Assembly (NCBI GenBank): GCA_018902385.1
Contig: JABSSW010000058.1
Coordinates: 62,001-126,000, forward strand
Source of the DNA: Physcia stellaris
Taxonomy: Eukaryota; Ascomycota; Lecanoromycetes; Caliciales; Physciaceae
DNA length: 64,000 nucleotides
Direction: 5' to 3'
This document shows, piece by piece, positions 29,316 through 62,669 of the stretch (the first letter of the stretch is position 1; every line of letters starts with the position of its first letter). The position numbers and the translations under genes are program-made. The notes under the pieces were generated by a model. The model was not told the origin of the DNA, did no database searches, and worked only from the letters and a program-made list of their open reading frames with translations.

Positions 29316-29951
29316 AGATATTGATGGACGTGAATCTTCAAAATATGGAGCGCGTCAAGGGTATTAGCGTATGCATATCTCATCGGAAAGCTCGCTTAAA
29401 TGCGGATCCGCAATTCCCCTCCCCGCACCAAGTTTCGATGTGATTTCTGAAAAATTCAATCTTCAATTCAGCAAATCATTGCTCGAAAATCCACGCAATT
29501 TGTCAGTGAATAATATATCGCTTTGAATTTCTGTATATTTCGCTTAACGTTTTCATGATGTTGCAATACTGATTCGTCACGCAATCAATTCATTTTTTTC
29601 GTCGTCGCAATGTCAATCATCATATTCGTTGCGATTCGTTCTCGTCTTGTTCGTTACATTTTGTTGAAATGAAATTTTGCAAACATCGTTACTGAAATTC
29701 ATTGCGCATTTTTCACAATGTATCAAATTCGAAACAACATGTTTTTTTATGATTTTTCGTTCAAATTCATTTTTCGATTTATGAACGCGTGCAAAAAAAT
29801 AATCGTTGCAACAAAAAATTCGTTAAAAAAATATCTCGAAAAACAATCGTGAACTTATCAGAAAAAAATGATGTGATTTCTGTGAAAAAAATGAAACATA
29901 TTCGTTCATCAATTTACAATTTTTCGATTCATAAAAAAAATACAATGAAAT

Positions 29952-30271
29952 TGTAAAAAATAAAAATTCAGAATTTTCGAAAATGCGATTCGCATTTCGT
30001 CAAGCAATTCGATTATCGAAGTTCGAATGATTTCGAAAAAAATCAATTTCAATTATTTTACAATTCGATCAACGATAAACTCAACAAGTTCATATTGTCA
30101 ATCGAAATCGTTCGAATTCGTACGATTAAATAAATAAAATGTGAATAAAAAACAATTGCAAAACGTAATTTGTTTTGTAACGATTAATAAATCAATATAT
30201 TACATTTCAAGTTATACATTTTTGATGTCAATAATTCATTAAATTATATTATTTCTAATACGAGTTTTACA
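29952..30271 (+). repeat. 5' LTR of outer element (320 bases)
   Basis: Begins TGTAAAAAATA and ends GTTTTACA. It matches 59,343-59,662 over its whole length with no gaps and, by eye, 13 base differences (about 96% identity), all transitions. Confidence 0.93.
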
Positions 30272-33200
30272 TTTTAATCGTTATCATATTTCAGAATGAT
30301 GTCATTCGTGTATATTTAACAAAATACAGTTTTGTTGTTTCGCATACATCATGTCGAGTTTTGATAATGATTTGCTTTTTGAATTTGTCGAAAATGTTGA
30401 CGTATTTTTTTGATTGATTTATTACAAACAACAAATCGAAAAAAATCATAAAAAAAAAATCAAATTGCAAACTCGAAATATTGAGCGTTCGAAATTTGTA
30501 ATTTTTATTTCATTTATTTTTATTTCATTTATTTTTGTTTTTGATTTTGTTTGAAAATTTTTCGTCATGAAAATTATCGAGACGACATCGAATCAATATG
30601 AAAAAAAAAATTACAAAAAATGAAAAAAATATTGCAAACAAATGAAAAATCAATTCACGCAAAACAACGTGAATCACATGATTTAATTTTCGAATTTAAT
30701 CAAAATCGCATACGTTGATATTTATTTCAAATTAAATAGCAATGCGAACAAATTTTGAAACGCAAAAATCGATTTTCATTCAAACAAACAATACATCTGA
30801 AACGAATTCAAAATTTTTTTGAAAAACGACATCGAACGAGCAATCACGTTGCAACAAAATTTTTTGAAAAAATATCGCAAACACAAACAAAATCACAATC
30901 AATCGATTAAAAATTACAATGTCGAACGAATAAATATGTTTGCTGAATTGAAATTCGAATTCAAATTCACGAAAACAGTGAAATTCAATGATTTTCGTGA
31001 CGAATTACGTTTGAAATTTCGTTGCATGCTTTTTAAAAAAAAAGATTTTCACAAAAACGAAATTGTTTGAACGATTCAAACGTATAAAAAACGTTCAAAT
31101 TTAAAAAAAAAATTCAAGAATTTCAAAAAGCGTAAAATCTCGTTCGATATTGACAATTTTGAAAGCGAAAACGAAAAATTCAAAATTGCGAAATTCAAAA
31201 ATAAAAAAATCAAAAATATTAACAAAATTAATTCGAATCACGAATCAATCAAGTCGAAAAATATTCGAATGTATCGTTGATTCGTCAGCGAATTCAAAAA
31301 AATTCAAAACAAAAATAATTGTATAGATTGTGACAAATCAAATTATCAAATCGAAATTTGTACAGACAAAAAAAAAACAAAATCATTTTCGCTGATCAAA
31401 TTTTTGAACAATCAAAAAACTAATCGATTTGATGATTTTCGTTCAAATCGTTAAAAAAAAATTTTTCGAATTTCGATTTCGATACGTCGTTTTTTTCAGA
31501 CATGAACAAAAATCATGCTAACAAAAAAAAAACGACGCAAAAAATTTAAAAAATTCGTGATTCGTAAATGCGTCAAAATCAAAATTAACATACAAAACGA
31601 AAACAAATTTTGAAACGAATCGAAAACAATATTCGATACAAAAACGAAAATTAATTTGATAAATCATGTTTATGCGAAAAAATTGAATTTTCGTCGCTTT
31701 GAAATTTTAAACTGTGATGCAATAACAGTTGACAATCATCGTTTGAAAACGTATAACGTTTATTTCGTACAATTCGAAATGTCAAACGTCAAAAAAATTA
31801 ATCGTTTTTTCGAGAAATCGTTTTTGATCGTGAATTTGAATTGAAATTTAACGTTAAACATGTTTTGAATACAATTTTCGAAAATCAAAATGAATTGAAA
31901 CGACGACAATATCAAAATTTGACGTTGCAAAAAAATATTTCATTTTTATCACATGTCGTATCGAAAACATCGAATCAAAACAATTGATCATAAACGTCAT
32001 CGATAACGAAATCGAAACGTATTTCATGTTCGTACGAATGTATATTGACAAACAATTCGACATGCATGAAATGCATGTTTCAAAACGAATTCAAATAAAT
32101 TTGTTTTGATTGAAATGAAAAAAAAATTCGATGTCAAAATCATTTTTTTCGATATTTTGAAAACGTATGAAAAATTCGATAACGAAAATAAAATTTACGA
32201 ATTATCAAATCATGATTCAGACGATCATGTTATTGATTTAAAAAAAAAAACAAGAAATCGTCGCATGAATCAATTTACTTTTTATTCGAAAATAAATTTC
32301 GAATATTACGTGTTTACATCGAAAAACATTTAATTAACGATTTCATTCGATTTTCACAATTTTTTGCAAAAACGTTCATCTTGTTCGTTTCAAAAAAAAA
32401 CGATAATTTACGATTATGCGTGAATTACAAAAATTTTAATGCTTTCACGATAAAAAATAGATATTTTTTATCGTTAATCGATGAAAATCTAAATAAATTC
32501 AGCAAAATCGTCAAATATATCAACATTGATTTGATTGCTGCTTATCATCGATTGCGTATCAAACATAAAAACGAATGAAAAACAGTTTTTCGTATTCGAT
32601 ATGATCATTTCGAATATAACGTATTTTTTTTCGATTTCATTAACGTTTCGACGACGTTTCAAAATTTCATCAATAAAATTTTAGCGATTCGTCTCGATAT
32701 TAACGTCATTGTATATTTGAATGATATAATAATTTATTCGATGAACGTCGAAATTCATGTCGACGATGTCAAATGAATTCTTGATCGTTTTAAAAAAAAT
32801 AAATTATACATTGTTTTTGAAAAATGCAAATGATTCGTTGACGAAATAAATTTTCTTGAATTCGTCGTTTTTTTTCAAAAAATGAAAATGCAAAACAAAA
32901 AAATCGAAATTATTCAACAATGATCAATATTTCGCAATGTTTTCGACATCATGCAATTTCTCGATATCGTTAATTTTTATCGACGATTCATTAAACATTT
33001 CAATAAAATTGCTGAATTTCTGATCGTTATGTTAAAGAAATCACAAAAATTTCGAAAAAATATTCGTAAACGCAAACGAAATCAAAATCGAAATCGCAAC
33101 AAATTATCGAATATTCACATTTTTTTGATCAACGAAACATTGAAAATTTTCAAATAATTTCGCAAAACATTTATCGAAATATCAATTTTACGTCATTTCG

Positions 33201-33450
33201 ATTTCGAACGTGTTATTCGAATCGAAATCGACGCATTCGACAAAATTTTAAAAATCATTTTATGTTAACAAAACGACGAAAATCATTGACATTTTGTTAC
33301 GTATTTTTCGCGCAAATTGATTTCGATCGAATGTCATTACGAAATTTATGACAAAAAATTGTTGATTATTGTGATTTCGTTCAAGCAATGAAAACATTAT
33401 TTCGAAAACGCAAAAAAACAAATTTTTGTTTTTATTGATTACAAGTTTGT
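30272..33450 (+). mobile_element. Outer element, left internal part (gag to RNase H)
   Basis: Contains a lysine-rich gag-like relic near 30.8-31.1 kb. The reverse transcriptase region (32,381-33,157) still shows the family's fingers and palm order (LCVNYKNFNAFTIKNRY, then DLIAAYHRLRIK) and a thumb/connection region. RNase H relics follow up to about 33.45 kb, where the Helitron begins. Heavily mutated; no long frame is intact. Confidence 0.75.
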
Positions 33451-36400
33451 TCGTGAATTTTTTTAAAAAAATTTCATGTAAAAGTTTAAAATTAGATTTT
33501 CAATTCTAATAACAGTCGAAAATTTTCAGATCAATAATTCGCGAACAACGTCGTTAATTATTCAACGTTCAATAATATTATTATTCTTTAAATTTGTTTT
33601 ATCGTACGACTATCTTCATGTATGTGCGTGAATTTCATGAGTTTTCATCGATTGCGCATAAAAATGTGAAATTGATTAAACAAACGTTTTTCATGATTTT
33701 TGAAATTCGATGTCGAATTTTTTTTTTATCGAAATTCGAAATTTCAAATATCAATCAACGCATGCATTTTGTTCACACATCATTGTTTGCAACATATCAT
33801 TATTCATTTCGAATGTTACAACGTACGAATCAAATCATAAATAGATTTTAATTACAGTCGATTTCGATTGTTGCGCGTCATCGTGATATTTATTTCAAAT
33901 TGCATTTTTTTACAAAGACGAAAAAGTGCATGTCGAAATTTCGATCTAAATTCAATTAGACAAAAGTGTCGCACAAATCAATTGAACATGAAAAATTTTC
34001 TTCGTGAAAATGACAAAGTTTCAAATAAATTCGATTTTATCGACGACGACGACAATCATCACACGTCAAATACAAACTATTTATGACATGTCGAAGTTAG
34101 CGATCATATACATGTATTTCACATATGAAAAAATAATTCACACAACAACATTTCGATCAAATAATCGAATTTTCGCAATTTCGCAACAACATCAGATTGT
34201 CTCGTCGCTTTTCAATCATTTTCAATGTTTGTTTTCTGACTCAAGTTGCGCATGCTTCGTATATTTGATTTAATTAAACGTAATACGTTCAAAAACTAAA
34301 ATAATTTCGTAACATTGCTTTTTGAACATAAGAACGAAATTTGTCAAAATGAAAATTTTTGGATTTTGCTATAGAAATTCGACAAAACAACTCAAGAAAA
34401 CTTCAAACGAGCTAGATTCGTATTCAGTTCGTATCGTAAAATTGATTAATTGATACGAATTTTCGCGAAATGAACTGAAAAGCAAACATTGAAAACGATA
34501 AAACAACGACGAGACAATTTGAAAATTCTGCGAAAAATTTGAAAAATGCAAAAAATCGAATTTAAAACAAAAAAATCTTTTTTCATTGCACGTTTTTGAT
34601 TTTTTTGACGAAATTCTCGAACAACACGTTCATTTCAGAAACAATGATGTGAAAATTTCACTTTTTCGTGATTTTGAAAAATGCGACGTACAATTGATCG
34701 TGCGTGAAACAATTGCGAATTTGTATATTCACGTCAACGTATTTCAGAAATTGTTTTTGCGATTTATTAATTGTCATCGCGAATGCAAAACGAATAGAAA
34801 ATTGACGTTTGATAAATTGACAAAACATTATAGCACGACGATTTTTGTTGAATTCGTCATTTTTAAATTGCAATGATATGCGAAAAATGACGATTTTAAA
34901 ATTCTCTTTTTTGTCGTCAACGATTTCGATTTCGAAAACATGTTGATTTATACGAGTGATTCGAATTCTGATATCGTTGCACTTGATAAACGATTTCAGA
35001 TTTCGAAAAATCATGATAAACATATCAATTTTTAAACGAAAAGTGTGAAAAAAGAACGAAACTTCGTTATAACGATGAAAACATTCGTCGTCGAATTTTT
35101 TTTTCAGATTTGAATCAACGAAAATATTGACGCTGTGTTTCAATTGCAATGATTTACGAAATTTGTCAATGCAAACGTCATTGATATGCAACACGTCGAT
35201 GTTAGCGACGATCAAAATCGCTCGCTCGTTAAAATATTGATTGCTGAAAATACGAATATGAAAATCAGAATATATGATATCAATAAAATCAATTTGTGAA
35301 TTTTTGAAAAACAAATAATCGTGCTTTCATAAAGTCATTTCATTATTTTTCGTGATTATCGCATTATCGATATCGAGAACGTCGCGAACAAATTCGACTG
35401 TTTTTTGACGATTTTGATCGTTGAGCGAAAAATTCTGAAAACGCATATTAATGATTAAAAACAAAATATTCATCTGACGTCAAAAGAGAAATTTCTGAAA
35501 ATTCATATTGATCACGATATTTCGAAATTTGTTGACAACAACAAAAAAACATTGTTTGAAATTTTCGCAAAAACATACAACTTTTTTTTCAAAAACGATG
35601 ATTTCGTCAACGTCGCAAAAATCGAAAAAAATTCTGTTAACGATCATGAAATTTCATTTTCGTTGCATGAGAATTTCGTTTCAAAAAATCAATTTGATTT
35701 TTCGAATGAACTCGCAACGATCGTTATTTTTTTGATATTACACGTGCTTTTTTCGATGATATTCAACGAAATTTTGAATCGAAAATGAACAATGAATTCG
35801 TCGTCGAGAAGCGTGATCGCAATGTCTGAAAAAATCATCGCGAAAACAATGATCGACTCGTTTTGAAATTCGATTGTTCGCAATTTGATCATGACAATGT
35901 TTTGAACAAAATTTTTTTTTGTTTTTTCAAAATCGTCGAAAAAGAAAAATTGATCGAATTCAAAATTATTTTTCATGATCGTCTCGACGATTGTATTCGC
36001 GATTTTTAATTGATCAACATTGAATTTGTTTCAGTCGATCGCAACAAATTGTGAATCATCGATCAATGCGAATTTTTCGCGAATCAATCGATTGATTTCG
36101 ATTGCGAATGCGTTGAAATCGATAATCGAATCGAGCAAATCGTAAATGAACAAATTGTTCGAAAACTCGTCGTCAACTGTTCGATTTAGAAGTTTTGTTA
36201 ATAGAAACAATTTCAACTGCTCGTTCTGATCATTGAGAGTATCGATATTTACGTTTTTTGAATCGAATAATAATGATTTAGAAAGCAAAAAGTATTCACG
36301 ATCAATAGTTCATTTGCAATCGAAAGAAAATTTGCGAAAAAATTAATCGAAATTCACGAAATCGAAAATGCGATCGCAAATTGATAATCAAATTCAAAAA

Positions 36401-39400
36401 ACATCGAAAAATGTGCACGAATCACGAAAATTTTCGATCAATGAAAAATTTAGAAAATTCAACATCATCATACAAAATTTTCTGTATATTTGAAATGATT
36501 TTCGATATTTTCAACATTTTCAAATGCTCAAAAAACAGTCAAAATCGAAACGTATTCTCTAAACATTTTCGCGAAAATGCAAAAATCAATTTACGTTTTT
36601 TTGTGAATATTTCAAAATTGTAAAAATTCAACAAAAGCACACTCAATCAAAATTGTAACGAATAATTTTTTAAGCATCGTCGTTGTATCGAATTCAATAA
36701 TTTCGATTATAACGACATTTCATTCGTCGTCGTCATTAATCAAATCGAACTTCACGCAAATTTGTTTATAATTGAAAAAACGTAATTTCATTTCATTTTT
36801 TGAAGTTTTCGAAATTTGCATATCAATCGTTTTTAAATTTTCGAAAAATATGACTTTTTTTCGATTGCAAAACAGCAATCGCAAATAAAAAATATCGTCG
36901 AATTTGAAATTCATATAATACATTCGATTTACACATTTTTTTTTTTCGCATCATTCACGTTTTGTTTTTCTTGTGTCAAATGAAATATTTCGAAATATTT
37001 TGATAAAAAATCTCACGTGAATTCACAACGATATTTTTATTTTTTTTGCGAACAACGAAAAAAAAATTGATCGTTGTTTTCGCATTCGAAAATTAAACGA
37101 TTGATGACAAAATATTTCGTCAACATGATTTTGCGAAATTTTTCGTTATCGAGCAATTGTTGAATCGTGATCGAATCATCAAAATTAATGATTGTTTTTT
37201 GTTGATTTTTCAAATGAATCGAAAAACGTGTAACGACGAATTTGATTTCATCGATAAAATGATCATTTAATCGTCACGCAATTTCACAAAATTTTATTCA
37301 TCGAACGTCATGAAAAATCTTGATTTCATCGATCGCAAATTTTTTATCGCGACGATTTGTTAACGACACATTGATTCGTCGTTCAGAAATAAAAACATTA
37401 ATGAAAACGTCGACGCAATCGCATTCTTTGAAAATATATTTGTACAAATAATCAACGAATTTCGCATTGATGCAAATTTTGACGTTGATATGAATTCGAT
37501 ATTTTTGCAACAATCAAAAATTATACGAAATTATTCATTTGTTGTCATACGTGATTTTTTCGATTGATTCACGATGAATATGTCGATAAAACGAAAATTC
37601 TGTATGATGAATCAAATTCGTATGCTCTTTGAACGATTTGAAAAATTTTTTGATGCAACGATCTTGCTCGTCATGACAAAAATTTTTTTCATTGTTTTTA
37701 CAGTTTTTATGAATCATGTGCTCAACAATCAAATTGTGAAAATTTTCGTTTTCGACTTTATCAGAAATAACGATCTGAACAACGACGTTCACGTTGACGA
37801 CAATAATTTCGTTTTTTGAATCAGCGATTATTAAAATATGAACGTGAAAAAAATCACGTTTTTGAAACTCAATAACGTAAATGTGTGCATTCATGATTTT
37901 CAATACATGACGTTCGATAAAATCACGTAACAATTTTTTCAATTTCAATTCAAATATTTTATTGATCAACTCGAGACGATTTTCTATCAATACGTCAGAA
38001 TTCGCATCGCGAATAAGTTCAAATCAATTCGAATTGCAAATAAAAATGATGAAAAACGTGAATTTGATATATTTTCGTATCAAAATCAAAACATTTTGTT
38101 TTTTGTTTTTCAATCATCGAAAAAATTTCACGTGATTGAAAAACAATACGATGATTTTCTGTTCGATATCGTTGAGTTCGTAATCATTATTCAATCGATT
38201 CATGACGTCGTCATAAAAATCAACGCGTAAAATTTGTTGATTAAAACGAAAATAATTGAAATCATTAAGTTCGCAATTGACGAACGCATTTATCAAAAAA
38301 TGTTGCAATAAACGTTTCGAATGTAACAAACGATTGAATTTTCTTTTTCGATTTTGTATATAATATATCAGAAACAAACAGAACAATAAAACGTAAAACG
38401 ATCGAATAACAACGAATCAATTCATCGTAATTTTTTCACGATATATCGATCAACTCGCGAAACGTATGTGAAATTTACATCGTGATGAAAATTTCAGAAC
38501 GCACTGAATCGTGTCAAAAACACGTTCGTAAAATTCAAAACACGAATAACAACTCATCGTCATTGAAAATTTCACGATTTGACGTGTGAAGATTCATCGC
38601 AAAGAAATGACATTAAATCGAAAAAAACAATGATTTTCGCATTTTTTTCGCATTCGACTTCGAAATATGCAGAAAACGAAACATTTTACAGAATTTACGA
38701 AAAAAAAGAAGTTAATCGAAAAGAAAAATGATTTCGATGAGAAAAATGTAAAAATCGACGTATTTGAAACATATAACGATAAAATTTCTTTTGAATTATT
38801 CGTTTCGATTTTTTTTTTCACACGACGTATCATTATCATCGTTTTTTCATCGTTTTCAGTTTCACGTTCAGAATTTTCGTCGACGTTGTATTTCAAATCA
38901 TGATCATAAACGAAAAAAGTTTCGTCAAATTTAGTCGTTTCAAATTTTCGAATCAGCAATCGAATATTGTTTTCGTGAATTTGCAATGATATATTGTTCA
39001 TTCAATTTTGTTTTTCGCACGAAAATATGATCGAATATCGAAACGTCATATAACAAAAATGTCAATAAAAAACACGAATGAAATCATCGTTTGTAATCTG
39101 AATCAACAAATTTTTTTCAACAAATTTGTTGAAATTGAATATATTGAACATATTGAAAATTTTTGCGATTTCGATGAATGTAAATTTATTGTAAATATTT
39201 TTGATTATGCGTTTCGAATCATGTTGTTTCAATATCATTTGAATTTCGAAATCGTTTTTTTTCAAACGTTGATCACAACTTTTGAAAATTTTCGCGTATG
39301 AATTGTGATTTTTGATTAAACGTTGAAAAACATGCAACACGTTGATATCGAGTTTTTCGTCATGCATCAAACGACGTTTCAATTTTTTTTGAAAATCGTC

Positions 39401-41080
39401 GATTTGATATATTTGACAGAAATGTTCATAATCATCTGAATCAACGAAGACGAAATTCAGTTTATGATACATTTTTTTCATTGCACGAAATGTCGTTCAA
39501 ACGTTGTGTTTTTCATTCATTTTGATTTTTTCGTTGCAAAATGACAAAACATTGTTGTAAATTATAATGTATTCGTGAAATTTTCTATTTCGTCGAATGC
39601 GTCGCGTTTTGTTGACAAAATCAATTTGTTTTTGCATTACGAATTTTTTCATTTCGTACATGAATCGATCGAAAATTTTTTCGAGTTTTCGTTCGCGACG
39701 ACGTACACGATTTTTTTCGAAATCGTCAGAAAGTTTTTCATAATCGTCAAGATTTCGTTCAAATATCATCATGTCGAAAAAAACTCTGTCGTTGAAACAA
39801 CAATGTCAATATTGTTTGTTGAAATTTTTATCGCGTTTTTCAGAATATCGATAAATTTTGCAAAAAAAACAAACGTTTTCATTCATTCGCAATTTCGACA
39901 ACACGTGTGAAATAAATATGAAATCGAATTTTCGAACATTGAAATAATCAAAATTCAATTTTATGTCGTCACGCGTATTTCTCGATTTTGATTTTCGAAC
40001 ACGTGATCGAATTCGAATCTGATCATTTGATTTGATTTTTTTCGTTGATTCGCGTATATTGTTATTTCGTTGACGTTGAGTCGATCGCTTTTTCGCTTGC
40101 TGTGATGACGATATGATTTCAATTTCGTCGTCAAAAACGAAATCGAAATCGTGATCGTACAAATTAATATAAAAACGAGAAGAAAACAAATCGAAATCGT
40201 CGTCGTCATCGTTTTCTTGAGAAAAAAGTTGAAAAAAAAAAAACACGATTCGCGAAACGCGCAAATCGTCGTATTTTTTGACGAAAACGTACAACAACAA
40301 ATTCAAAAAAAGTAAATTGATAAAAAGTGAAAACGTTGACGAAAAAAACTCGTTGATCGTTTTTTGATTTTAGAAAACGTTTTCGTCGTTTTTTCGACGT
40401 GACATCATTGTTAACAATATTAGTGACATCGCTAAGAAATCGTTTAAACGTTGATTTCGTTGAAGTTGCAAAATGAAAAAACAAAATGATGATTTCATAA
40501 AAATTCATTCACATCGCAAATTGTTGTTGACGAACGCGATTCGCAACATTGACGACATGACAATTATTATATTTATTGAAAACGAAAATTGAACGATCGA
40601 ATGAAATCATGTTGTGAAATAAAAACAAAAAAATGTAATGCGAAAAAGATGAAAAAATGTAAAAATGAAAACGCGAAACTTTGTTGTTGTAAAATGTTTG
40701 ACAAAACTCATCGAGAAAAGAAAAACAAGAAAACGACGTTGAAAACATCATAACATCATCATCAAAAAATCAAATTACATGATTTTCGCGTCGTTGAAAA
40801 GCGCATGAGTAATTTTACAATTTCAATTCAATCAATAAAAAATGTACGCGTTGAATGATTGCGATGTAACGTGTGCAACAATTGCACGAACGCAAAAACT
40901 TTGATGATTGATCGAATAAGAAATAGCATATTATTTTTTTGAAAATTTAAATTTTCAATTGATGAAAATTATCGAATTTAACGAATACAAACGTAAAATT
41001 GATCAGAATTTTTTTCGATCGATCATTCGCGTCAAACGAATTTACAGAATATTTTATTATAGAAAGATTTTATCGCAATT
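33450..41080 (-). mobile_element. Helitron (Rep/helicase) fossil, minus strand, inside the outer element
   Basis: A rolling-circle DNA transposon of about 7.6 kb lies in the outer element's RNase H region. Read on the minus strand, the order is as expected for a Helitron. An N-terminal region (about 40.5-38.6 kb) includes a cysteine-bearing relic (CFFCKIYRYSEKR). The Helitron-like N domain follows (38.4-38.1 kb, NRKRKFNRLLHSKRLLQHFL). The HUH Rep endonuclease lies at 37,990-37,535, with the two-histidine motif as FHVHILII near 37,845. A Pif1-type helicase runs from 36.3 to 34.66 kb (SIIVFAMIFSDIAI, HFRFKISLNIIEKSTCNI, FAMTINKSQKQ, QLYVAFF), ending close to the helicase C-terminus. Many stops and frame changes are present; most tryptophan codons read as TGA. 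The terminal TC/CTRR and hairpin cannot be placed after so much mutation. Confidence 0.75.
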
Positions 41081-41172
41081 TGAAACAATTTATGATCACA
41101 ATTAGATTGTCGTCACGTCAAATTCGATGAATTCAAAAGTTAAATCGATATAATTTTTTAATCGATTATCGT
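41081..41172 (+). mobile_element. Short outer-element island between Helitron and middle element
   Basis: About 90 bases with plus-strand coding relics of the RNase H/pol linker typical of Gypsy elements (RNLKQFMITIRLSSRQ). It shows that the Helitron and the middle LTR element entered the outer pol at two nearby but separate points. Confidence 0.6.
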
Positions 41173-41389
41173 TGTGACGAACGTACATCGAATTCAACAT
41201 TTGACAAAATTCACATCGAATTAACATTGTTATTTTATGACATCGAATGTTAGAATCGAAATTCGATTTGACGCATTCAAAAGATCAAATTTTTTACATA
41301 TGTTTTTGCAAATTTCATGTATTTGTTTTTTATTTCGATATTTTCGTGTAATTATGTAATAATATCATATCATTGCATAATATCTCACA
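41173..41389 (+). repeat. 5' LTR of middle element (217 bases)
   Basis: Matches 56,389-56,605 over full length without gaps, with 12 base differences by eye (about 94-95% identity). Ends TG...CA. Confidence 0.92.
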
Positions 41390-42453
41390 TTATATCGAAG
41401 TCAATTTTTTTTTCATGTTCGTTTATGATACGCGAGCATTCAAATAAACAAAACTTTTTACAATTAAATTCAATGAACGAATAAAAACATAATAAATTCA
41501 ATTTGATTTTGATCATTCAACGAAAACAACGAAACATAATAAATTCGTTGTGAATTGAAAAAAACGAAACATAATAGATTCGTTTGTTTTGTTTTAAAAA
41601 ACGTTCAAAACAGACGAATTCACGCGATAATCTCGATTCACAATACAACAAATTTTTTTTTTTATTATTTTTGACGAAACATTCGTGTTTGAAAATTAAA
41701 AAATCATTGAATCAAAAAAAACATCAACAAACAAACATTTTTATTCAACATTCATTTGTTTCATTATAAACAAACATCTAGAAATTTCATTCAACATCAC
41801 ATCGAATTTGTCATTCTAAATGAAATTCAATTATCAAGATTTATTTAAATCATTGTTTTGTTCATTTTTTTTCTTTTTTTTTCAACAATTATTCGATTTC
41901 AATTCACAATTATGATTTTTTCAAATTTTCTTTTCGAAGTCAATCTGAAAAATCGATTATTGTTTAGCGAAATCACACAATTGAACGTGTATGTTTTTGA
42001 TCGAATAATCACAAATTTCGAACAATATATTATCGATATTTTTTTTGCTTTAAATTCTAATCAGAATGACGATGAGTTTGATAAAAATGAATCGTTCAAA
42101 ATCGTTAATTCGATAAACATTTTTTCGAAACAACAATTTCAATTAATGATCGTCAATCATTTCGACGAATTTTGAATTATTTTCGAGATTTTTCGACGAG
42201 ATCGAAATCGAAAAGTAATCGTCATTCGAATTTGAAATTTTCAAATAAAAAACATGAAAATCAAAATCTCGAATCATAATAAAAAAAAATATGAAATCAA
42301 CGAAATTTTGCGTGTCGTCAAAATCGAAATTTCTGTTGCTCAAATTCAATGTAATAAATTTTTCAAAATTCAACGAATTCGTGAAAATAAAAATAAACAA
42401 CGAAAAAAAACTGTTAAATTATCAGAATTTGAAAAATTTTCTAATTTCGAAAA

Positions 42454-42611
42454 TGTTATGAATTTGACTAGAGCTTTCTGTATTTAACATTCAGTCAATC
42501 AATTGACATTCAGTCAATTAAGTGATTTGATTTATGTAATTACTATGATATATATTTGGTCATTGACTTTCTAAATAGCTAATCAAGTTTTTTACATTCA
42601 ATACATCAACA
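42454..42611 (+). repeat. 5' LTR of inner element (158 bases)
   Basis: Pairs with 50,122-50,285. Eleven substitutions and one 6-base length difference near the 5' end by eye. Preceded by GAAAA. Confidence 0.9.
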
Positions 42612-50121: not shown

Positions 50122-50285
50122 TGTTATGAATTGACATGTGACTAAAACTTTCTGTATTTAGTATTCAATCAATCAATTGACATTCAATCAATTGAGTGAT
50201 TTGATTTATGTAATTATTATGATATATATCTGATCATTGACTTTCTAAATAACTAATCAAGTTTTTTACATTCAATACATCAACA
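50122..50285 (+). repeat. 3' LTR of inner element (164 bases)
   Basis: Pairs with 42,454-42,611. Followed at once by GAAAA, the same five bases that precede the 5' LTR. After it, middle-element gag sequence resumes. Confidence 0.9.
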
Positions 50286-53200
50286 GAAAAAGAATTTCGT
50301 TTTGAATTTAAAAAGCGTTCGTTCAAACAATTTGATTTTTTTGTTGAAAAATTTCGTTTTGATTTTAAAACACGCTTGTTTCGACATTTTGATTTTTTTA
50401 TTTTTTTTGAACATAAAAATTTCAATACGTTCGAATACATTCGTTACGATATTTGAAAAAATAAATGCATTGATAAATTGAAAATCAATTTCGATTGATA
50501 CGTCGATAAATTCAAAGAAATTTTTGCAATTATTGATTGAACAAAAAAAAAATTTGCGAAACATATCGATATTCGACGCGAAATTAAACGCAATTTTTTC
50601 GAATCAATTGATCAAATTTTCAAGTTTTTGAACGACATTTATATCGATGTTGATTATTTTCGAAACGTTCGTCGTCAATACGATGATTTGAAAATGAAAT
50701 TCATTGAATTTTTCAACGAATTTTATTTCGAATTTTTTTTTTTAATCAATCAACTGTTCAAGAAAAATGAAAAAAACAAAATTCACGATTTCGAAAAAAA
50801 AATCACAACGAATTTTCAACACGTCGACGTTGTTTTGAACGATTATGAAATTTTTGACGATTATTTTCGCAAATTTCAAATCATGAATAACAAACATCGT
50901 CGCATCAAAAACAACGATGTTAAAATTAATATTTTTTTCATTAAAAACAAATCATCGATCAATCAATTAAATTTTCGAATTCGTCGCAATAAACAATATA
51001 TAAAAAATTTGAAAATTAAATATACGACTTTTTTTTAAAAAAAAAACGTATAAAATTGTCATCGTTTGTTTTAATTTGTTTAAATTGAAAAAAAAATGTC
51101 GAAAATGTGATGAAAAAAATCATTGATAAAAAAAATGCATTTTTGACAAATCATTTGATAATTGAATCGACAATTTGATCAAACAAAAAATGTTTAATTT
51201 GCAAATCATTTTTTTGATCAACGATAATTTTTCAAATATCGACGACGATAATATAAATTTCGATGTTTCAATCACATTCGACGCTAAATCGAAAAATTAA
51301 CAATTTTTTTCGAAAACGCGAAAAAAATTATCAAAATTTGTTCACGAAATTTTCAGCATAACATCTTTAACGAATTTCATTGTAAATTTTTAATTAAAAA
51401 GATAAATCTGTTTTCGAATGATAAAAAAATCATAATTCATGATTTAATTGATATCGATATTTTTGAATACGTTTTCATTAATGAAGAAATTGCGCAAAAA
51501 ATATGTCATAAATTAAAATTAATTTCAATTTTTCTATTTCGATTTAAAAGAATTTTTAATTTCGAAAAAACGAAAATCAAATTTATTATTCATCAAATAT
51601 TGTTCAAAATGACGATACAAAATTATTCAAAATTTTTCGTTTCATTGTTCATCATCAAAATAAAACAACATTCGTTGATTTTAAAAAAATTTTGAATGAA
51701 CAAACATGAAATGATTTTCAATATGATCAACGACGAATGTTATTTTATTTCGAATCATTGTGATCACGTTAAAATTTTTTTTGCTATCACGTTCGTCTAT
51801 ATTTCAGAAATTATTTAATTCGAACAAGCATTCGAATAAAACGTTTTATTTGTCATTTTTTGAACGATTTTTAACGTCGTTTTCGTCGACAAACGTTTAG
51901 AAATATCAAATATTGCAAAAACGATCAATCTCGACATTTTTTCGAATAATTTTTTCTCGTTTTATTGTGAAAGATTCGGAAAAAAACGAACAATCAATAA
52001 AGAAATTTTTGAATTCAGATTTCAAATATGTCATTGAAAAAATAAACAAAAAGTATTCATCGAATAAGTTGTTCAAAAAAAAGCGAAAAACGAAAATCAT
52101 ACGTGAAATTCAAAAATCGAATTTAATTAACGTTTCGATAAAAAGATTTGACATTTTCAAAGAATTTGCACGTCGATTTAATCGACGATTTAAAATCACG
52201 ATTTCGAAAATTGAAAATAACGAACAAAATTTCGATTTTGATATATCATTGAACGTGACGTTCATCGACGCGACGATTTTTCAATCTTTAACAAAATTTA
52301 AAAGAAAAAAAAATGTCAAAATTTTTTCATTGATTATGAAAAAATTAAACGAAATTATTGACAACGTCAAAAAAAATTGATCAAAATAAAAATTAATTTT
52401 GATTTAAATTTCAATTTTTTTTTTAAAATTATGAAAACAATCGTCGAAAAATTGAAACGTAAAATTTTTGAATTTTTTAAACGTTTCGAAAGTGTATTCA
52501 ATTCGAAAAAAACAAACAAATTATTTTTTCATAAATTTTACAATCACAAAATCGAATTGATCGAAAATTCGAATCAATTGTTTCGAAATCGAATTTATTT
52601 TTTATCATTCAAAAAATTCGAAATTTTTCAAAAATATTTACACGACAATTTTCAAAAAAAATTTATCAATTCAAACAAAACGTTTTATGTTTCGTTTATT
52701 TTATTCGTCGTCAAATCGAATAAACAATTTCGTTTGTGCGTGAATTATCGAAAGTTGAACGTCATAATCAAACGTAATAATTATTTTATTTCGTTGATCG
52801 AAAAGATTTTCGCTAAAATTATCGATTGTAAATTCTTGTTCAAATTGAATATTATATCGATTTTCAATAAATTTCGAATGAATTCACAAAACGAAAATTT
52901 TATTATTTTTATATGTTCGTTAAACATTTACAAGTATCATGTATTGTTTTTCGATTTTATCAATGATTCGATCAATTGACAACATTACATGAACGATTTG
53001 TTGTTTGAATATATTAATCATTTTTGTTAAATATATTTGAATGATATTTTCATTTACAACAAAATTCGAAAACAACATGAACGACATTTCATTCAAATTT
53101 TTCAAAAATTGAAAAAAATTGATTTTCAAATCGATATCAAGAAATGCGAATTTTTTCAAACAAAAATTTCATTTTTAAAAGTCATATTATCGACAGAAAA

Positions 53201-56200
53201 TTTACGCATGAATTTCAAAAAAATGCAAAATATCGTCAATTGAATTCGTTCAACATGCATCAAAAAAATGCAAACGTTTGTGAATTTTTGCAATTTTTAT
53301 CGACGTTTTATCAAAACGTTTTCGAAATTCGTCAAATTTTTAATTCGAATGATCAAAAAAAAAATTGATTTCGAATGAATCGATTTCGTTAACGAAACAT
53401 TCGAAATTCTGAAAAAACAAATAATCGAAATTTCAATTTTTCGACATTACGATCGCAATCGTAAAATTATTTTGAAAATCGATTTTTCAAATTGATGTTT
53501 GAATGAAGTTTTATTTCAATACGACGACGACGAAATTTTTCATTCGATGATTTTTTTCAACAAAAAAATGATTTTTGTCGAATGTAATTACGAAATATAT
53601 GACAAAAAATTTCTGATCATTATTCGATGTTTAAAACATTGAAAATTCGAATTCGAAAATATTGACGAATCAATCGAAATTTACATCGATCACAAAAATT
53701 TGAAAATTTTTATGACAAACAAAAAATTCATTTCTCGTCAAATACGTTGAATCGAAATTTTAACGAATTACAATATCAAAATTCAATATCAATTCGAAAT
53801 CAAAAACGTCAAAACGAATGTTTTGATTAAAATATTTGAATTTCGTTTCGTCGAAAACGACGAACGTGAATTCTATAAAAAACGAATTTTGTTGTCATTT
53901 TTTCGATTGCAATTATGTTCGATTGACGTTCAAAACGATTTATACGAACGCGTCATGCAAATCAATCGAAAAAACGAAAATTGTATTAATTATCGTCAGA
54001 TTTTGATCGATGAACAAATCATCAACGAAAAAATAAATTTGCAAAATTGTTTCGATCGAAACGAAATTTTTTTTAAAAACGAAAATTTATAAATGTCGAA
54101 TCAATTAAATTTGATGATTGAAATAATTCGTGACGTTCACGATCAATTTTTCTGTGCATATTCGAACATGAATCGTATTGAAAAATTCATTAAACGCTAT
54201 TATTATTGATTTAGTATGAAATTATTCATCAAACGTTATATTCGTAATTGTCACAAATATCAACGATCGAAATTTTCACATGATGATCGTCACGAATTGT
54301 TAATTTCATTGTCGATTTCTAGTCAACGATAAATTGATATATCGATGAATTTCATAATTGAATTATTTGATTTCAAAAACAATAATGTCATTTGTATTAT
54401 TATCGATCGTTTAATCAAAAAACGTCATTACGTTTTTTGCGTGATTGATGACGATGATTTAACAATTCAAATTTGTGTCAAAATATTGTTTCATTATGTA
54501 TTTCGTATTCATGAATTATTTTCATTCATTATTTCAAATCGAAATAATCAATTCGTAAATCGCGTTTGAAAATTTTTTTGTAAACGATTAAAAATCAAAT
54601 GTAAATTGTTCATTGTTTTTCAATTTGAAATCGATGATCAAATCGAACGAACGAATCAAAATATCGAAATTCGATTGCGTTTGTATTGCAATTATCGTCA
54701 AAACGATTGAATTGATTGAATAAATATCATGAAATTCGTTGACAACAACGATGTTTTAATAATTATCGAATTCATTTCATTTTTCACTAATAAAAATTAT
54801 CATTTTCGAATGATTTTTGAATCAAATTTAAATGATTACGATATCATTAAAAAACATTTGTTGATTAAACAAAACGAATTCATTGTCGAAAAAATGAATC
54901 GTATCATCGAATACGTCAAAATCAATGTTATCGATGCAAAACAAAAAATGATTGTTCGAATCAACAAATTTCGTTTCTCAATAAATTTTGAAATAAAAAA
55001 TTACGTTTGATTAAATCGTCGTTATATAAAAACAATTCGCTCGTCAAACAAATTGAACGATAAAAAATTGAATTCATACAAAATGATCAAAAAAAAAGAT
55101 TTCGTTTATGAAATGAAATTGCTCGACGATATGCACATTCATTCAGTCTTTCATTTCTGATTATTAAGAAAAAATTCTAAAAATTCGTTGAAAAAACAAC
55201 ATAACGATTCTTCAAAATCAATTATCGCGAGCGAAACGTTTGAATGAAAATTCGATAATATATTGCAATTTCGATATCATTATCATCGTTTTCAATATCG
55301 TTGTAAATGATCGAATTGAAATTTTCATGATCGAATTTGATATTATGTCGACGATAACGAATTTCAAAATGCTCAAAACATCGTGAATGTTTTTCACGAA
55401 ATTAGTTCAAAAACAACGAAATTTGTTTTACGAAATAATTAAATTGTAAACATCGTTTATGATCGATCAAAAAACGTCAACATGAATTCGTTACAATTCA
55501 TTGTCAAATTGATTCAAATAGTTTTTGTTTCGATTTTTCGTTTTCATGTTATTTCGCGTTATTTATTGTCAGAATTTACGTCGCATGAAAAGTTGAATCG
55601 TGTCAAAAATATTTTTAGAAATTGTCGTCAAATTTTATTGAACAATAAATAATAATGTAAAATGTCATGCAATAAAATGAATAAACACAAATTGTCAAAA
55701 AAGTTCGAACATTTACGAGTTCGTCAACAAAATTTTCAATTGTTTATTAATGACACGCGAAATTATTTGTAAAATTCGTTCAAAATATTTGTTTTTCAGA
55801 AAATTTAATACATGCATATTTCGTTGAATGCAATGTACAAATCAAACGTCGTATATGCGATAACATCAACGCGTTAATCGTGATGATAAAAATTTTATCG
55901 ATTTGTTCAAATTGTTCGACTCGTGATATCAATTTGATGTTGCAAAAATTTTCAAAATTGTTGACGCGTTAAATCAAATTTACAATTTTTTGTTTGTTAA
56001 TGTTCGTCGAAGTTATTTTTTACGAAACGTATGAATTGATTATTTTTCAAAACATTCATTAAATTCACGTTTTATCGCATGCAATGTACACACGAACATT
56101 CGCATACGCGAAAATATCAAAACGTTGAACATTGTTACGATAATTTTATTAACATGATCAGATTGCTCATTTCATCGTAAATCGATTTGATGTTTTCATG

Positions 56201-56388
56201 ATTTTTGACGAATCGATTTCGCGAACGAAATCGATTTCACAACATTTCGAATTTATTTTTTCATTTTATCAATTATTCAATTCAACGTCATTCAACAGCG
56301 CATTTAAATCGCGCAAAACGTTCATCAATAAAAAAAAACGAATTCAATTGATCGTTTCGAAACGAAATTGAAAAAAAACGAAAAATAA

Positions 56389-56605
56389 TGTGACGAACGT
56401 ACATCGAATTTAACATTTAACAAAATTCACATCGAATTAACATCGTTATTTTATCACATCGAATGTTAAAATCGAAATTCGATTTGACGCATTCAAGAAA
56501 TCAAATTTTTTACATATGTTTTTGCAGATTTCATGTATTTGTTTTTCATTTCGATATTTTCGTGTAATTATGTAATAGTATCATATCATTGCATAACATT
56601 TCACA
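56389..56605 (+). repeat. 3' LTR of middle element (217 bases)
   Basis: Partner of 41,173-41,389. Directly beyond it, outer-element pol sequence resumes in the plus orientation, confirming nested insertion. Confidence 0.92.
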
Positions 56606-59342
56606 TTCGTTTCGATAACAAAAATTTTGTTGACGAATTTTCAAAACGATCTGATCACATGACGATTACTGAAAAAAACGTCGAAAACAATCGTCAAATT
56701 TTGAAACAATTGCAAAAATCATTAATCGCAAACTCGAAACGTTTCGAAAAAATGCGAATAAATGCGATCAAAATCATGAATACGATGCATGTCATGAAAC
56801 GATTCATGAATGCGATACATAACACGAAACGTCGATCGCATTTAAATGATTTAACAATCGAATCAATTAACGTTGTTTCGAAAACATTTGATTCAAAAAA
56901 TTCAAAACGAAATCGAATTTCAATCAACGTTGTTTCGAAAACATTCGATTCAAAAAATTCAAAAAATTCGAAACATTCGATTGAGCAAAAGTCAAACGTG
57001 ACACTTATAAAATGAAAAATTTTTGTGTTAAAATCAGCGATTGTATTTGAATGCGCAATGCATAAAATTCGAATACAAATTGTTTTACGAGAAAAAACGA
57101 CATATAACGACGAGTCAACATTTTCATTGTTGAATTTCGTTCGTGATTTGATCGTTAAAAATCAATTCGTTTTTGAAATATGTCGAAAATTAATTATTTC
57201 GAAAACAAAAACAAACAATTGACAACACAAAAATGAATTTTTGTATTACGACGATGTCGTTTACATTTCAAAAAATTTGCGTGAAAACGTTATTCGTGCA
57301 TATTACGATAATTTATTCGTTAATCATTTCGACATCGAACGAATGTTGAAATTAATACGTCGAAAATATTATTAATCGAATCAAAATTTTATCGAAATTT
57401 TTGAAATGCGACAACAAATCAAGAAATATTGTGAAACATGCGTCGTTTGCAAACGAAACAAAATTGCACGACACAAATCATACGACGAATTTTTTTTTTT
57501 TCGATTTTTGAATTTAAATAAATTGATTTTTTCATGAATTTCGTGACAAAACTTTTTTCAAATAAAACATGAAATAAAACGATTTACGATTCGATTTTAA
57601 TGATTGTGAATCGTTTAACGAAAATAATTCATTACATATCAATAATTAAAACGATTTTCGCAAAAAATTTGATCGAAATTCTATTTCGCGAAATCATTCG
57701 ATTTCACGATTTTTTTTCGTCAATCGTCATCGACAAAAATTTCATTTTCACGTTCAAATACAACGATGCATTATGTTACGTTTTGAAAATCAAACGTAAA
57801 TTGTCAATCGTTTTTTATTTTCAAATCGATGAACAGATCGAGCGAATGAACAGCGTCATGAAACAATTTTTTCGCGTTTTTGTCAATTTCGAACAAAATG
57901 ACTGAATAAAATTGTTGTTCATGATCGAATTCGTTTACAACAACAACAAACATGCATTCACAAATATTTTTTCGTTCGAAATTATGTTTGAATATTCATT
58001 TCGCATGTTTTTGAAAAAACATGAAACAAAAAAATTAAATTCAAATTCGCAAAAAAACACGTTGAACATTTAGTTGAATTATTTCGAATATTGAAAAACA
58101 ATTTATTTATGACATAACAACAACAAACGATGTATAAGAACGAACGCACGAAATCAATGTCATACAATGTCGAAAATTACGTGAATTTGAACGATAAAAA
58201 CATCAAAATTAAACGAAACAAAAAACTGAAATGAAAATTCTTTGATTCATTTCAAATTTTAAAAATTATAAAAAATCAAATTTATCGTTTAGATTTGCTC
58301 AAACGTTGACGCATTCACGACGTCTTTCACGTTTTTTTTTTGAAAAAGTTCAATTTTTAAAAAAAAAAAACGCGTATACGTCACATTTTTCTGAATTTTT
58401 TTATCAAGTTGAAAATATTGAATTCGACGAAAATATGAAAATGAAAATCACGAAAAAAATTTATGAAATCGAAATCATCAAAAACAACAAAATTTTCAAG
58501 ACAAATGAAATTTCAAACAAATTTTACAACGAATTCGATCTTTATTATTTCGTGAAATGAAAAAATTATGAAAACGCGATTTGAAAGTTTGCATCGTTTG
58601 TCAAACATTTTCGAAAAATTTTGCGACAATTTCATAACGAAAATTCGAAAAAATTTGATGTCAATAAAAAAACAAATCATCGAAAATCAAAAAAAAAATG
58701 AATTGAAATATTTATTGCATGTTAATACATTTTTCGTTTTCAAAATTTTGTGTGCTATTTATTGTTTAAAATTTACGACGCATGAAAAATTGAATCGTGT
58801 CAAAAACATTTTCAAAAATTGTTGTTCGATTTAATCGAACGATAAATCGTTGAATAAAAAATGTGAAATGAAATAAAAAAAAAATTTCGAAAATTTGAAT
58901 ATCAATGCGATCGCGATTAATGAACGTCTATCGCGTTACACATTTTTTCATGATATCGATGTTGATATTCGAAATAAAAAAATGAAAAAATGAAAAAATG
59001 TTCGAATTCAGAATTTTTTGTCAACAAATCAGTTGTCAATCATCATATCGAAAATTGTGAATGATACGAAATCAAACATTCGATCATGAAAACAACAAAC
59101 AATTGATTCATCAAATTATGCTTTTTCTGAATCATTCAAGAAAATGTTTTTTCAAATTTTTAACGCAAACTGATTATTGAATTCGAGCAAAAATATTTCG
59201 AAATGCGAAAATCACGATCATAATGATTTTTCAAGTCAATGCAAAATCAAAACAAACAAAACACGTCAAAACAAACAAAATACGTCAGAATTTTTGTTAG
59301 CATGTTGATTTCAAAAAATTTCGATGTTTAAAAAAAAACGTA
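56606..59342 (+). mobile_element. Outer element, right internal part (end of RNase H to chromodomain-like tail)
   Basis: The end of the RNase H/linker (NKNFVDEFSKRSDH) is followed by a spacer with a 57-base tandem duplication (56,863-56,976). After that come a zinc-binding lead (about 57.2-57.5 kb) and an integrase core (57,600-57,905, with HYISIIKTIFAKNL and FYFQIDEQIERMNS). The integrase C-terminal region reaches 58.2 kb and a chromodomain-like tail lies at 58.3-58.6 kb. The last ~500 bases before the LTR are non-coding. Heavily mutated. Confidence 0.75.
56863..56976 (+). repeat. 57-base tandem duplication in the outer element
   Basis: Two copies at a 57-base (19-codon) period, each starting TCAATTAACG or TCAATCAACG, in the spacer before the integrase. 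They differ by only a few bases. Confidence 0.8.
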
Positions 59343-59662
59343 TGTAAGAAATAAAAATTCAGAATTTTCGAAAATGCGATTCGCATTTCGTCAAACAATT
59401 CGATTATCGAAATTCGAATGATTTCGAAAAAAATCAATTTCAATCATTTTACAATTCGATCAACGATAAATTCAACAAACTCATATTGTCAATCGAAATC
59501 GTCCGAATTCGTACGATTGAATAAATAAAATGTGAATAAAAAACAATTGCAAAACGTAATTTGTTTTGTAACGATTAATAAATCAATATATTACATTTCA
59601 AACTATACATTTCTGATGTCAATAATTCATTAAATTATATTATTTCTAATACGAATTTTACA
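59343..59662 (+). repeat. 3' LTR of outer element (320 bases)
   Basis: Partner of 29,952-30,271; same length, same TG...CA ends. It is followed directly by GAAAT, the target duplication also found just before the 5' LTR. Confidence 0.93.
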
Positions 59663-60430
59663 GAAATAACAAAAAAAATCAACGAATTAATTATCGACGA
59701 GACGATGATTTTCGTTTGCATTGAATCGCAAATTTTTTGCACGTTATCGTCGAGCAAATGATGTGCGTAAACGAAATTTTGTTCAATGAAATGATTGATT
59801 GACGTCATCGAACATATGTTTTCATTGAACAATTTGCTCGTTATCATGTTGATCGAAAACGAAAAATTTTTTGAAATGTATTTTTTGTTTACATCATTTG
59901 AAATGAATTTTATTATTCGTTGAAATCGAAATTTTGATTGATTTCAATGAACAAACTATTTGCTTTGTACAAACATCAAAAAAAACTGATTCAAATTCGA
60001 TAATTTTTACGAATAATTACGATTCGATTTATTATCGTTATGCGACGTTTATTCTGCTCACAAAAGCGTGATTATTATGAACAACGTCAATATTCATTGT
60101 AATGCACGCATCAAAAAACTCATTGAAACACATGAATGTCAAATCAAATTTTTTTTTTTTCTATTTTTCAGATTATAATTCAATAAAACTGAATTTTTCG
60201 ATTTTAAAAATCTGAATCAAAACGCATTTTCACGAGATGTGATTTCGTTTTGAAAACACATTTGAAAAATTCTTGAAACATACGATGAAACAAAATCGAT
60301 GCGATCGTTTTGCGATAAAACATTTCAAATATAATGCTAATGAATACATATTCGAAAAAAAATTGAAAATTTTTAATGAACGATTAAACGTTGAATTAAT
60401 CAATTTCGAAATTTTTGAATGTTAAATGAT

Positions 60431-62450
60431 TTTTAGTTTTTTGCAAATAAAATAAAAGTTTTTCGAAATCATACAATGAAAATATTAAAATGTAAAATTC
60501 AAAAAATGTGACATCAAAAATGTATAGTAAAAACGATTGTATAATTAAATTAATAATTGCAAAATTAATTATTTAGCAAATTTTCAATTATATAATCAAT
60601 CAATCTGTTCAATCGTACACACATTTCAAAACTAATTCGAAAATATAAACTTGTTGAATTCAATCAAAAATTTGATATTGACGTGATCAAATTGATCGTT
60701 TTCATAATTTATTCGTTTCGATAATCGAATTGCTTGATATTCACATGCATGCGAATTGAATTTTTTCAAAATGCAAAAATAAAATGAAAATTTATTATAC
60801 AAAATCGCTTTTTTCTTTCGAATAAACAAACGAAATCGTGTTAAAAAACTAATAAAATCGAAAATTATGTAAAACTTTTAAATGTTACGAAATTCATCGT
60901 TTACATCATCAATATTTCGATTTCAATTTCTCTTCGCATCGATATCTAACTTGAAAAATTATGCGATGATGATGACGAAAATTGAAAATCATACGAATTG
61001 TATATTGATGAATATATCATTTGAAAAAATTGATATTCAAACGATGTTTGCGAAACATAAAAAATTTGATATGTATAATGCGTATATTGTTGTGATCATG
61101 CAAAATATGCAATAAACATTTGAAAAAATTCAAAAATAAACATTTGAAAAAATTCAAAAACAAAAATCGAATATTGATATGCAAAAATCGAAAAAAATGC
61201 ATCGAATATATTCATTGTTTTGCGATGACGTGTTTTTTGTATTTTTTTAATTTTTCGTTCGTAATTTTTTTTTTGACGTTTTTTCTTCTCGCGATAACAT
61301 TTAATTCAATTGATCGTGATTTTCGTTTTTTCACGTTTTTGTTTTTTCAACGACTGTTTATTGTTCGCGATAATAAAATCTTGCTCGAAAAATCATTCGT
61401 TTCACAATTCAGCAAATGAATTCGTGACGTTAATTTCAATTTTTGTTGTCGTCATACTTTTGATTCAACGATTCATTTGAATCGAATTCATGTTGTAATG
61501 ACGTTTTTTTTTGTTTGTTCAACATCAAATTTCAAAATTGCGACATTGTTCGTCTTTACATTGTCATTTATTCACGAATTTTTTTTTTTCAATCGAAACG
61601 AAATTAATTGCTTTTTTCGAATTTAAATTGATCGATACGAATGTGTTTTTTGAACGTGAATGTATCGTCAATTGAATCGACGATAATTTCAGCAAATCGT
61701 TTCATGATTGATTTAATTGTTTTCAATTCGTCGTTTTTGATTTGTTTTTTTGCAAACATTTTGAAAAAATCGATTTTGTAACGAATATTCAAAAATATCT
61801 CAATTTCGAAAAAAATTTCTGATTTTTTTTTCGTTTTCGTCATAGCAATTTTGATTAATTTATTAACAATAACAGTGATATCGTTTCATTCGATTTCGAA
61901 AAAATTCTTCATTGATTGTTTAATTCATTTTTTTCTCGAATGTGATTTTACAAAAATCAAAATGTTGTTGTTGATTCAATTCAATTCGTCATCGTTTTGT
62001 ACAATAATTTCGTAAATCAAATCGTTTTCAAAAAACTTTTGAATGTTGAATTCGCTTTTACGAATATTCGTGTATTGAATGTTTCAGCAAAAAAATTTGT
62101 TGTCGATTTTCAATTCGATTCGAATCGTCATCAAAAAATTTTCAATTAATTTTTCAACTTTTTTTTTCTCGTTTAGATGAAATTGCAATAACTCATCAAA
62201 AAATAAAACATTCATGTTTTTTATGACGAGCAATTTCTTTTTACGTCGACGTTTTATTTTTTCAATTTCGAATTTAATCATTTCAACGTCTTTTTCGACG
62301 TTACGACGAATTTTTTTCACAATTTGTTTATGTCGAACGCGAATTGCAACATTCGTTTTTTTTTGCAAATCGACGACGTAAATTGTTTTGACTTTTTTAT
62401 TTTTTTTGTTATTGATCGCAATTTCGTGAAAATCAACATTTGTTACGAGC
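60431..62450. other. AT-rich remnant sequence of unidentified origin
   Basis: Same mutational style as the rest of the block. At 62,452-62,084 on the minus strand a basic, coiled-coil-like frame (IEKIKRRRKKKLLVIKNMN, then FFDELLQF) recalls the C-terminal tails of pogo/Fot1-type transposases, but the match is weak. At 61,843-61,604 (minus) is another lysine-rich frame I cannot place. At about 61,114-61,160 there is a 23-base tandem duplication (AAACATTTGAAAAAATTCAA). No LTR pair seen here. Confidence 0.4.
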
Positions 62451-62669
62451 ATGCCTGGAGATTTCGGTTGGAGTCTTATTTTATCAGCGGGAGTTCATAT
62501 GAGGCTAGCGCGATCAGGGCTTGACGTTCACAATCTACTTCTGGCATTCGATTTTCATGTACATATTTGCTTCTTAGATCAAATATTCTCGTTATGTTAT
62601 TTATTGAGTTTTAGGCATGCGCCTTACATTATATTTGATTTTCATCGTGACGAGCGATGTAAAATTCAC

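Follow-up and report, generated by a model that had tools for sequence, protein, structure and literature searches.

A 3'-pyrimidine-specific C-to-T mutator has run almost to completion on the transposons of a 33-kb block within a 64,000-nucleotide stretch of Physcia stellaris DNA (the window). We observed directly the context spectrum of the C loss, its near saturation, the sharp edges of the block, its transposon content and the nesting of its elements. The reading that we favor, and consider quite probable, is a C-to-T mutator of a filamentous ascomycete that resembles repeat-induced point mutation (RIP) but hits CpC before CpT and both far more than CpA or CpG.

The GC content of the block (29,430-62,450) was 0.269, compared to about 0.50 in the genes to its left. 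A preliminary description of this DNA had reported near loss of CC/GG, strong depletion of CT/AG and retention of CA/TG and CG, and all three held when counted: there were 9 CC/GG where base composition predicts 1,194, and 995 CT plus AG where it predicts 3,243. Observed-to-expected ratios in the block and in the left flank (1-29,430), respectively, were 0.01 and 0.94 for CC, 0.31 and 1.11 for CT, 1.26 and 1.08 for CA, 3.18 and 0.87 for CG, and 0.41 and 0.70 for TA; TC was raised to 1.41-1.58 across the block compartments compared. Six of the nine surviving CC/GG sites were CCG/CGG, perhaps through a third-base effect or new mutations. The coordinates of the description were also right, with maximum-likelihood edges at 29,433 and 62,449 (3-log-unit ranges of 29,431-29,443 and 62,431-62,454, respectively), and the edges are sharp to 10 to 25 bp. 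By eye, no target duplication was seen at the outermost edges, 29,430 and 62,451.

The left 29.4 kb showed no leakage of the C loss. Pfam identified genes for Nic96, a lunapark-type zinc-ribbon protein, a sterol methyltransferase, an FGGY kinase and an STL11-like protein. Compared with PDB chains, the Nic96 product scored 412 bits with the best solved Nic96 and 168 bits with another, which we take to be the Chaetomium and yeast proteins, respectively; this gap in score is our basis for calling the host a filamentous ascomycete. Fewer than 200 bp separate the likely Nic96 start from the block upstream of it (29,265-29,431; start placed by eye), and the gene is intact. The preliminary description had named equally strong CC/GG loss in unique intergenic DNA as a finding that would count against it; seven left-flank stretches between open reading frames (ORFs) of at least 150 amino acids, taken from the unannotated ORF list and possibly containing exons, were normal (C share before C, 0.40-0.47). 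In the window, no Rfam family reached its gathering score, and no tRNA was found.

The block contains a nest of three LTR elements (E1, E2 and E3) and one Helitron (Table 1). E1 ends in TG..CA and has the target duplication GAAAT, that of E2 is ATCGT/TTCGT with one mismatch, and that of E3 is GAAAA. In a PDB sequence search, an E1 integrase piece (57,573-57,902; 1.1e-8) and an E2 RT piece (52,362-52,976; 2.5e-6) matched Ty3; the E1 and E3 RT pieces had no clear match in that search, and the E1 RT piece was placed by its likeness to the E2 RT piece (1e-15). Two of the 20 block pieces reached the curated Pfam cut-off, one with Helitron_like_N and the other with Integrase_H2C2 (8.4e-8, in E3); RVT_1 in E3 (7.8e-4) fell below its cut-off. 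No relative of the E3 integrase piece, the Helitron piece or two LTR patterns was found in viral contigs, and none of the E3 RT piece in the genome contigs searched.

Table 1. Features of the window, with positions counted from its first nucleotide
Feature	Position	Strand	Basis or remarks
CpY-exhausted block, whole	29431..62450	.	GC, dinucleotide ratios, change-points
Surviving CC/GG sites	34,361; 42,857; 43,407; 46,075; 48,629; 51,978; 59,503; others		
Nic96 gene, two ORF pieces, unmutated	26099..29354	-	Pfam Nic96 4.9e-111, 9e-75
E1, outer LTR element, Ty3/Gypsy-like	29952..59662	+	LTR pair, flanks; interrupted by Helitron and E2
E1 left LTR	29952..30271	+	320 aligned positions, 13 differences
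E1 right LTR	59343..59662	+	LTR pair alignment
Helitron-holding region	34501..41172	-	Helitron_like_N 6e-10 in 37,538-38,023; ends approximate, set by us
E2, LTR element, Ty3/Gypsy-like, within E1	41173..56605	+	LTR pair
E2 left LTR	41173..41389	+	217 aligned positions, 12 differences
E2 right LTR	56389..56605	+	LTR pair alignment
E3, innermost LTR element, least mutated, within E2	42454..50285	+	LTR pair
E3 left LTR	42454..42611	+	158 aligned positions, 11 differences, 6 gap positions
E3 right LTR	50122..50285	+	LTR pair alignment
E3 frame	44649..49790	+	1,714 codons: 23 TGA; 0 TAA, TAG, TGG
Right neighbor, partly mutated, same spectrum	62451..64000	.	Runs off window

We calculated C/(C+T) for each pyrimidine on both strands, split by the 3' neighbor, for the flank (1-29,400) and the block (29,500-62,440). 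Before C, this share was 8/4,787 (0.0017) in the block versus 0.445 in the flank, and before T it was 989/12,638 (0.078) versus 0.510. Before A it was 4,071/7,667 (0.531) versus 0.604 (p = 1e-18), and before G it was 3,778/7,849 (0.481) versus 0.444. Five compartments (the gaps, E1, the Helitron, E2 and E3) agreed in this spectrum. Within E3, C was kept at 5/1,186 positions before C and at 479/2,946 before T, and it is composition, not the two CpC differences in the LTR pairs, that shows CpC to be the faster target. The E3 retention before T exceeded that of E2 (113/3,001; p = 1e-61), with E1 at 148/2,965 and the Helitron at 175/2,450, and E3 as the youngest element fits the nesting. E2 lies inside E1 yet kept slightly fewer C before T (p = 0.02), which counts against a strict age order. 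The block DNA outside E1 (29,431-29,951 and 59,663-62,450; 521 bp on the left and 2.8 kb on the right) is equally exhausted and is perhaps an older element that received E1.

The target is set by the 3' base. The 5' base had a small, less than twofold effect in E3, where the C share before T was 0.091 in YCTY, 0.175 in YCTR, 0.171 in RCTY and 0.256 in RCTR contexts, compared to 0.48-0.55 across the same four contexts in the flank. Positions 29,952-42,453 gave no clean ranking (0.040, 0.110, 0.070 and 0.071, in the same order), and a bias of the C loss toward pyrimidine runs is therefore suggested but not established. Within 100 bp, E3 showed a same-strand correlation of retention (z 4.5, 200 shuffles). 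At 300 bp, sites on opposite strands were the more strongly correlated (z 4.1, against 1.8 for sites sharing a strand), so strand-wise action in E3 is only hinted at. The E3 minus strand kept 270/1,271 C before T and the plus (coding) strand kept 209/1,675.

These data are consistent with a defence that would convert C to T on either strand within transposons, picking its target by the 3' neighbor, with CpC fastest, then CpT, and with CpA and CpG hardly touched. Because C-to-T and G-to-A transitions preserve the pyrimidine and purine classes, such a mutator would never alter its CpY target pattern by its own products, and repeated rounds would lead to a fixed end state with C and G left just at pyrimidine-purine steps and GC at about half of its starting value. 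When all CpY sites of the flank were converted by script, GC became 0.244 and the ratios for CG, CA, TA and CT became 3.64, 1.47, 0.31 and 0. This composition is close to that of the block (0.269, 3.18, 1.26, 0.41 and 0.31, respectively).

By the code table, the sole new stop that a CpY mutator can make is TGA from TGG, whereas CpA mutation turns CAA and CAG into TAA and TAG. Glycine, proline and tryptophan codons would be lost under the proposed mechanism, and across six frames these residues fell from 5.8, 5.8 and 1.7% to 0.014, 0.014 and 0.005% in the block. All three are absent from the 44,691-49,430 part of E3. The E3 frame still holds 53 CAA and 15 CAG codons, and 61 TAA/TAG would be predicted in it from the other five frames; its TGA-only stops are as expected if TGG alone became a stop codon. 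A Helitron frame (37,040-40,369) likewise has 1,110 codons with 13 TGA and no TAA/TAG, and these two frames are the longest among the 19 listed TAA/TAG-free runs of over 250 codons. The pattern fails in an E2 stretch (50,541-54,092), which has 19 TAA and 18 TGA when read in a single frame, possibly through frame changes or through age or other decay.

Comparison of the LTR pairs gave the same target. The by-eye count of the preliminary description proved exact, with 36 substitutions, 35 of them transitions, over 695 aligned positions in three pairs, and so did its split by context into 24 CpT plus 2 CpC, 8 CpA and 1 CpG, in addition to the 1 transversion. Expressed as sites lost in one copy over sites where at least one copy is still C, loss was 2/2 for CpC, 24/34 for CpT, 8/94 for CpA and 1/57 for CpG (pyrimidine versus purine 3' neighbor, Fisher p = 2e-16). 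With almost no CpC left to lose, the pairs record mostly CpT changes. Since 8 of the 35 transitions lie at CpA and the block has a smaller C share before A than the flank, either some CpA sites are hit too or the elements started with another composition. LTR divergence was 4.1% for the outermost element E1, 5.5% for the middle element E2 and 7.0% for the innermost element E3, the inverse of the nesting, probably from saturation in both copies of the older elements. LTR dating would give the wrong insertion order here, a caution for such genomes. By eye, the LTR differences showed a bias by copy and strand, which is left out of the argument.

The block is like Neurospora RIP in its C-to-T changes on both strands, its confinement to transposons beside intact genes, its gradation by element age and its choice of target by the 3' base. 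Canonical RIP makes transitions only, and 35 of the 36 LTR differences were transitions. Neurospora-type RIP also prefers CpA (PMC2621366, PMC12543289), whereas the block nearly spares CpA (8/94 in the LTR pairs, against 24/34 for CpT and 2/2 for CpC), hits CpC fastest and has TA depleted rather than raised. Canonical RIP raises TpA/ApT, which was 0.42 in the block and 0.72 in the flank, and lowers (CpA+TpG)/(ApC+GpT), which was 1.39 and 1.27. The composite RIP index was -0.97 in the block, below the -0.55 of the unmutated genes, and a screen by index would therefore rank the block as less RIP-affected than its flank.

Other departures from CpA are on record, as far as the available parts of the papers go. 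In Pyricularia (Magnaporthe) oryzae, Botrytis and Sclerotinia, a CpT target is tied to a RID motif (Amselem 2015, PMC4352252). CpT is likewise a main target here, but those fungi are described with CpT alongside CpA and with no CpC signature named in the accessible text, whereas the block is led by CpC and nearly spares CpA. For ten genomes, the same source lists CpA, CpT and CpG signatures; the term CpC does not occur in its accessible parts. Its CpG-type basidiomycete decay, the Microbotryum TCG context, is also context-bound C-to-T change in transposons, but the block keeps CpG (0.481 before G versus 0.444 in the flank). RIP islands of Cladonia rangiformis, as excerpted, share sharp borders with gene space and higher GC in later nested insertions; their GC peaks near 16%, while the block stops near 25%, the floor to be expected under a CpY rule (PMC12542154). 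RIPCAL defines a CpC class, and the same paper, in its accessible portion, reports for S. nodorum dominant CpA, CpT in some repeats, and CpC depletion without a matching rise in product (PMC2621366). Extracts on Monilinia give CpA with some CpC-to-TpT double changes (PMC8959702). Those on Monacrosporium haptotylum show no decrease in CpA with a raised TpA index, an earlier departure from CpA (PMC3828140). The CpT half of our spectrum is not new, since in the available part of van Wyk 2021 the form that dominates alignments of RIP-capable fungi is CpT (PMC7882544). A CpC-first, CpA-sparing spectrum was not found in the available portions of the open-license literature searched, where the reported targets are CpA, CpT or CpG.

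The preliminary description had attributed the block to a repeat-directed C-to-T mutator. A C-to-T mutator with a 3'-pyrimidine preference is borne out, acting on both strands of the transposons, leaving the genes to the left untouched and nearly sparing CpA; its direction by repetition is presumptive, drawn from the transposon content and sharp edges of one locus. The mutator is likely RIP in the wide sense and would then act in the sexual cycle. The simplest guess at the enzyme, evenly balanced in our judgment if the rest holds, is a candidate RID/DIM-2-class methyltransferase with changed specificity.

A repeat- or heterochromatin-directed mutator of another kind, for example a cytosine deaminase that acts on DNA and prefers a 3' pyrimidine, is unlikely. 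It would produce the same C-to-T outcome, and the same-strand correlation within 100 bp in E3 (z 4.5) is what a strand-wise enzyme gives, but at 300 bp the opposite-strand correlation (z 4.1) exceeds it (z 1.8). Moreover, AID/APOBEC-type deaminases choose their target by the 5' base, and here the 3' base decides and the 5' base has a small effect (YCTY 0.091 versus RCTY 0.171 in E3). We give still less credence to slow decay, in which CpC/CpT methylation in transposons and deamination of methylcytosine over time would act without a dedicated mutator. Such decay yields context-bound C-to-T change in silenced DNA, and the partly mutated right neighbor could represent a younger stage; however, MAGGY in Pyricularia carries, in the accessible text, more methylation at CpA than at either CpC or CpT (PMC7979813). 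Also against slow decay, CpC is almost gone, the 36 LTR differences include a single transversion and a 1,714-codon frame is free of TAA/TAG, which together mean that CpY sites were hit very many times and mutations of other kinds were few.

Damaged or modified G following a purine (CpY on the opposite strand), for instance O6-alkylguanine left unrepaired in heterochromatin, is very improbable as the cause. Temozolomide produces signature SBS11, in which C turns into T at CpC and CpT as in the block, but SBS11 acts on genes too and the left flank is normal (0.445 before C), and no known source would confine damage within edges of 10 to 25 bp. General AT pressure, UV damage, CpG methylation decay (MIP/Masc2-like) and a nuclear code that reads TGA as Trp are refuted by the context pattern, even though GC is low (0.269) and E3 is open for 1,714 codons if TGA is sense: CG is in 3.2-fold excess, TA is depleted, TC is enriched (1.41-1.58) though UV damage targets TC, CG observed/expected is 3.18 with 0.481 before G versus 0.444 in the flank, and the 44,691-49,430 part of E3 also lacks Gly and Pro codons.

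A RIP-like mutator with the order CpC, CpT and then, far behind, CpA and CpG thus remains our preferred reading. From 1,239 fungal genomes, Badet and Croll 2025, in the portion available, conclude that RIP-like defences share a CpA preference (PMC12543289), and the block is a single-locus counterexample. It also exposes a blind spot of index-based RIP screens, in which near-saturated mutation gives a composite of -0.97. We think it more likely than not that a fungal lineage has a repeat-directed mutator for CpC/CpT that nearly excludes CpA/CpG and has an exact end state invisible to the indices; if so, such genomes would previously have been scored RIP-free by TpA/CpA indices. If the enzyme is a RID/DIM-2 homologue, it would offer a natural change of specificity for asking what reads the 3' base.

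The DNA to the right of the block may be a younger adjoining element. Its C/(C+T) (62,455-63,999) was 0.231 before C, 0.381 before T, 0.592 before A and 0.509 before G, or 0.52, 0.75, 0.98 and 1.15 relative to the flank. Before T it ranked in the direction of E3, with 0.322 in YCTY, 0.382 in YCTR, 0.396 in RCTY and 0.449 in RCTR contexts. A minus-strand ORF (62,084-62,494) spans the right block edge. Tandem arrays at 62,855-63,166, with 40-bp units (5 copies) and 20-bp units (3 copies) containing GGGG runs, hold many of the remaining GG of this neighbor.
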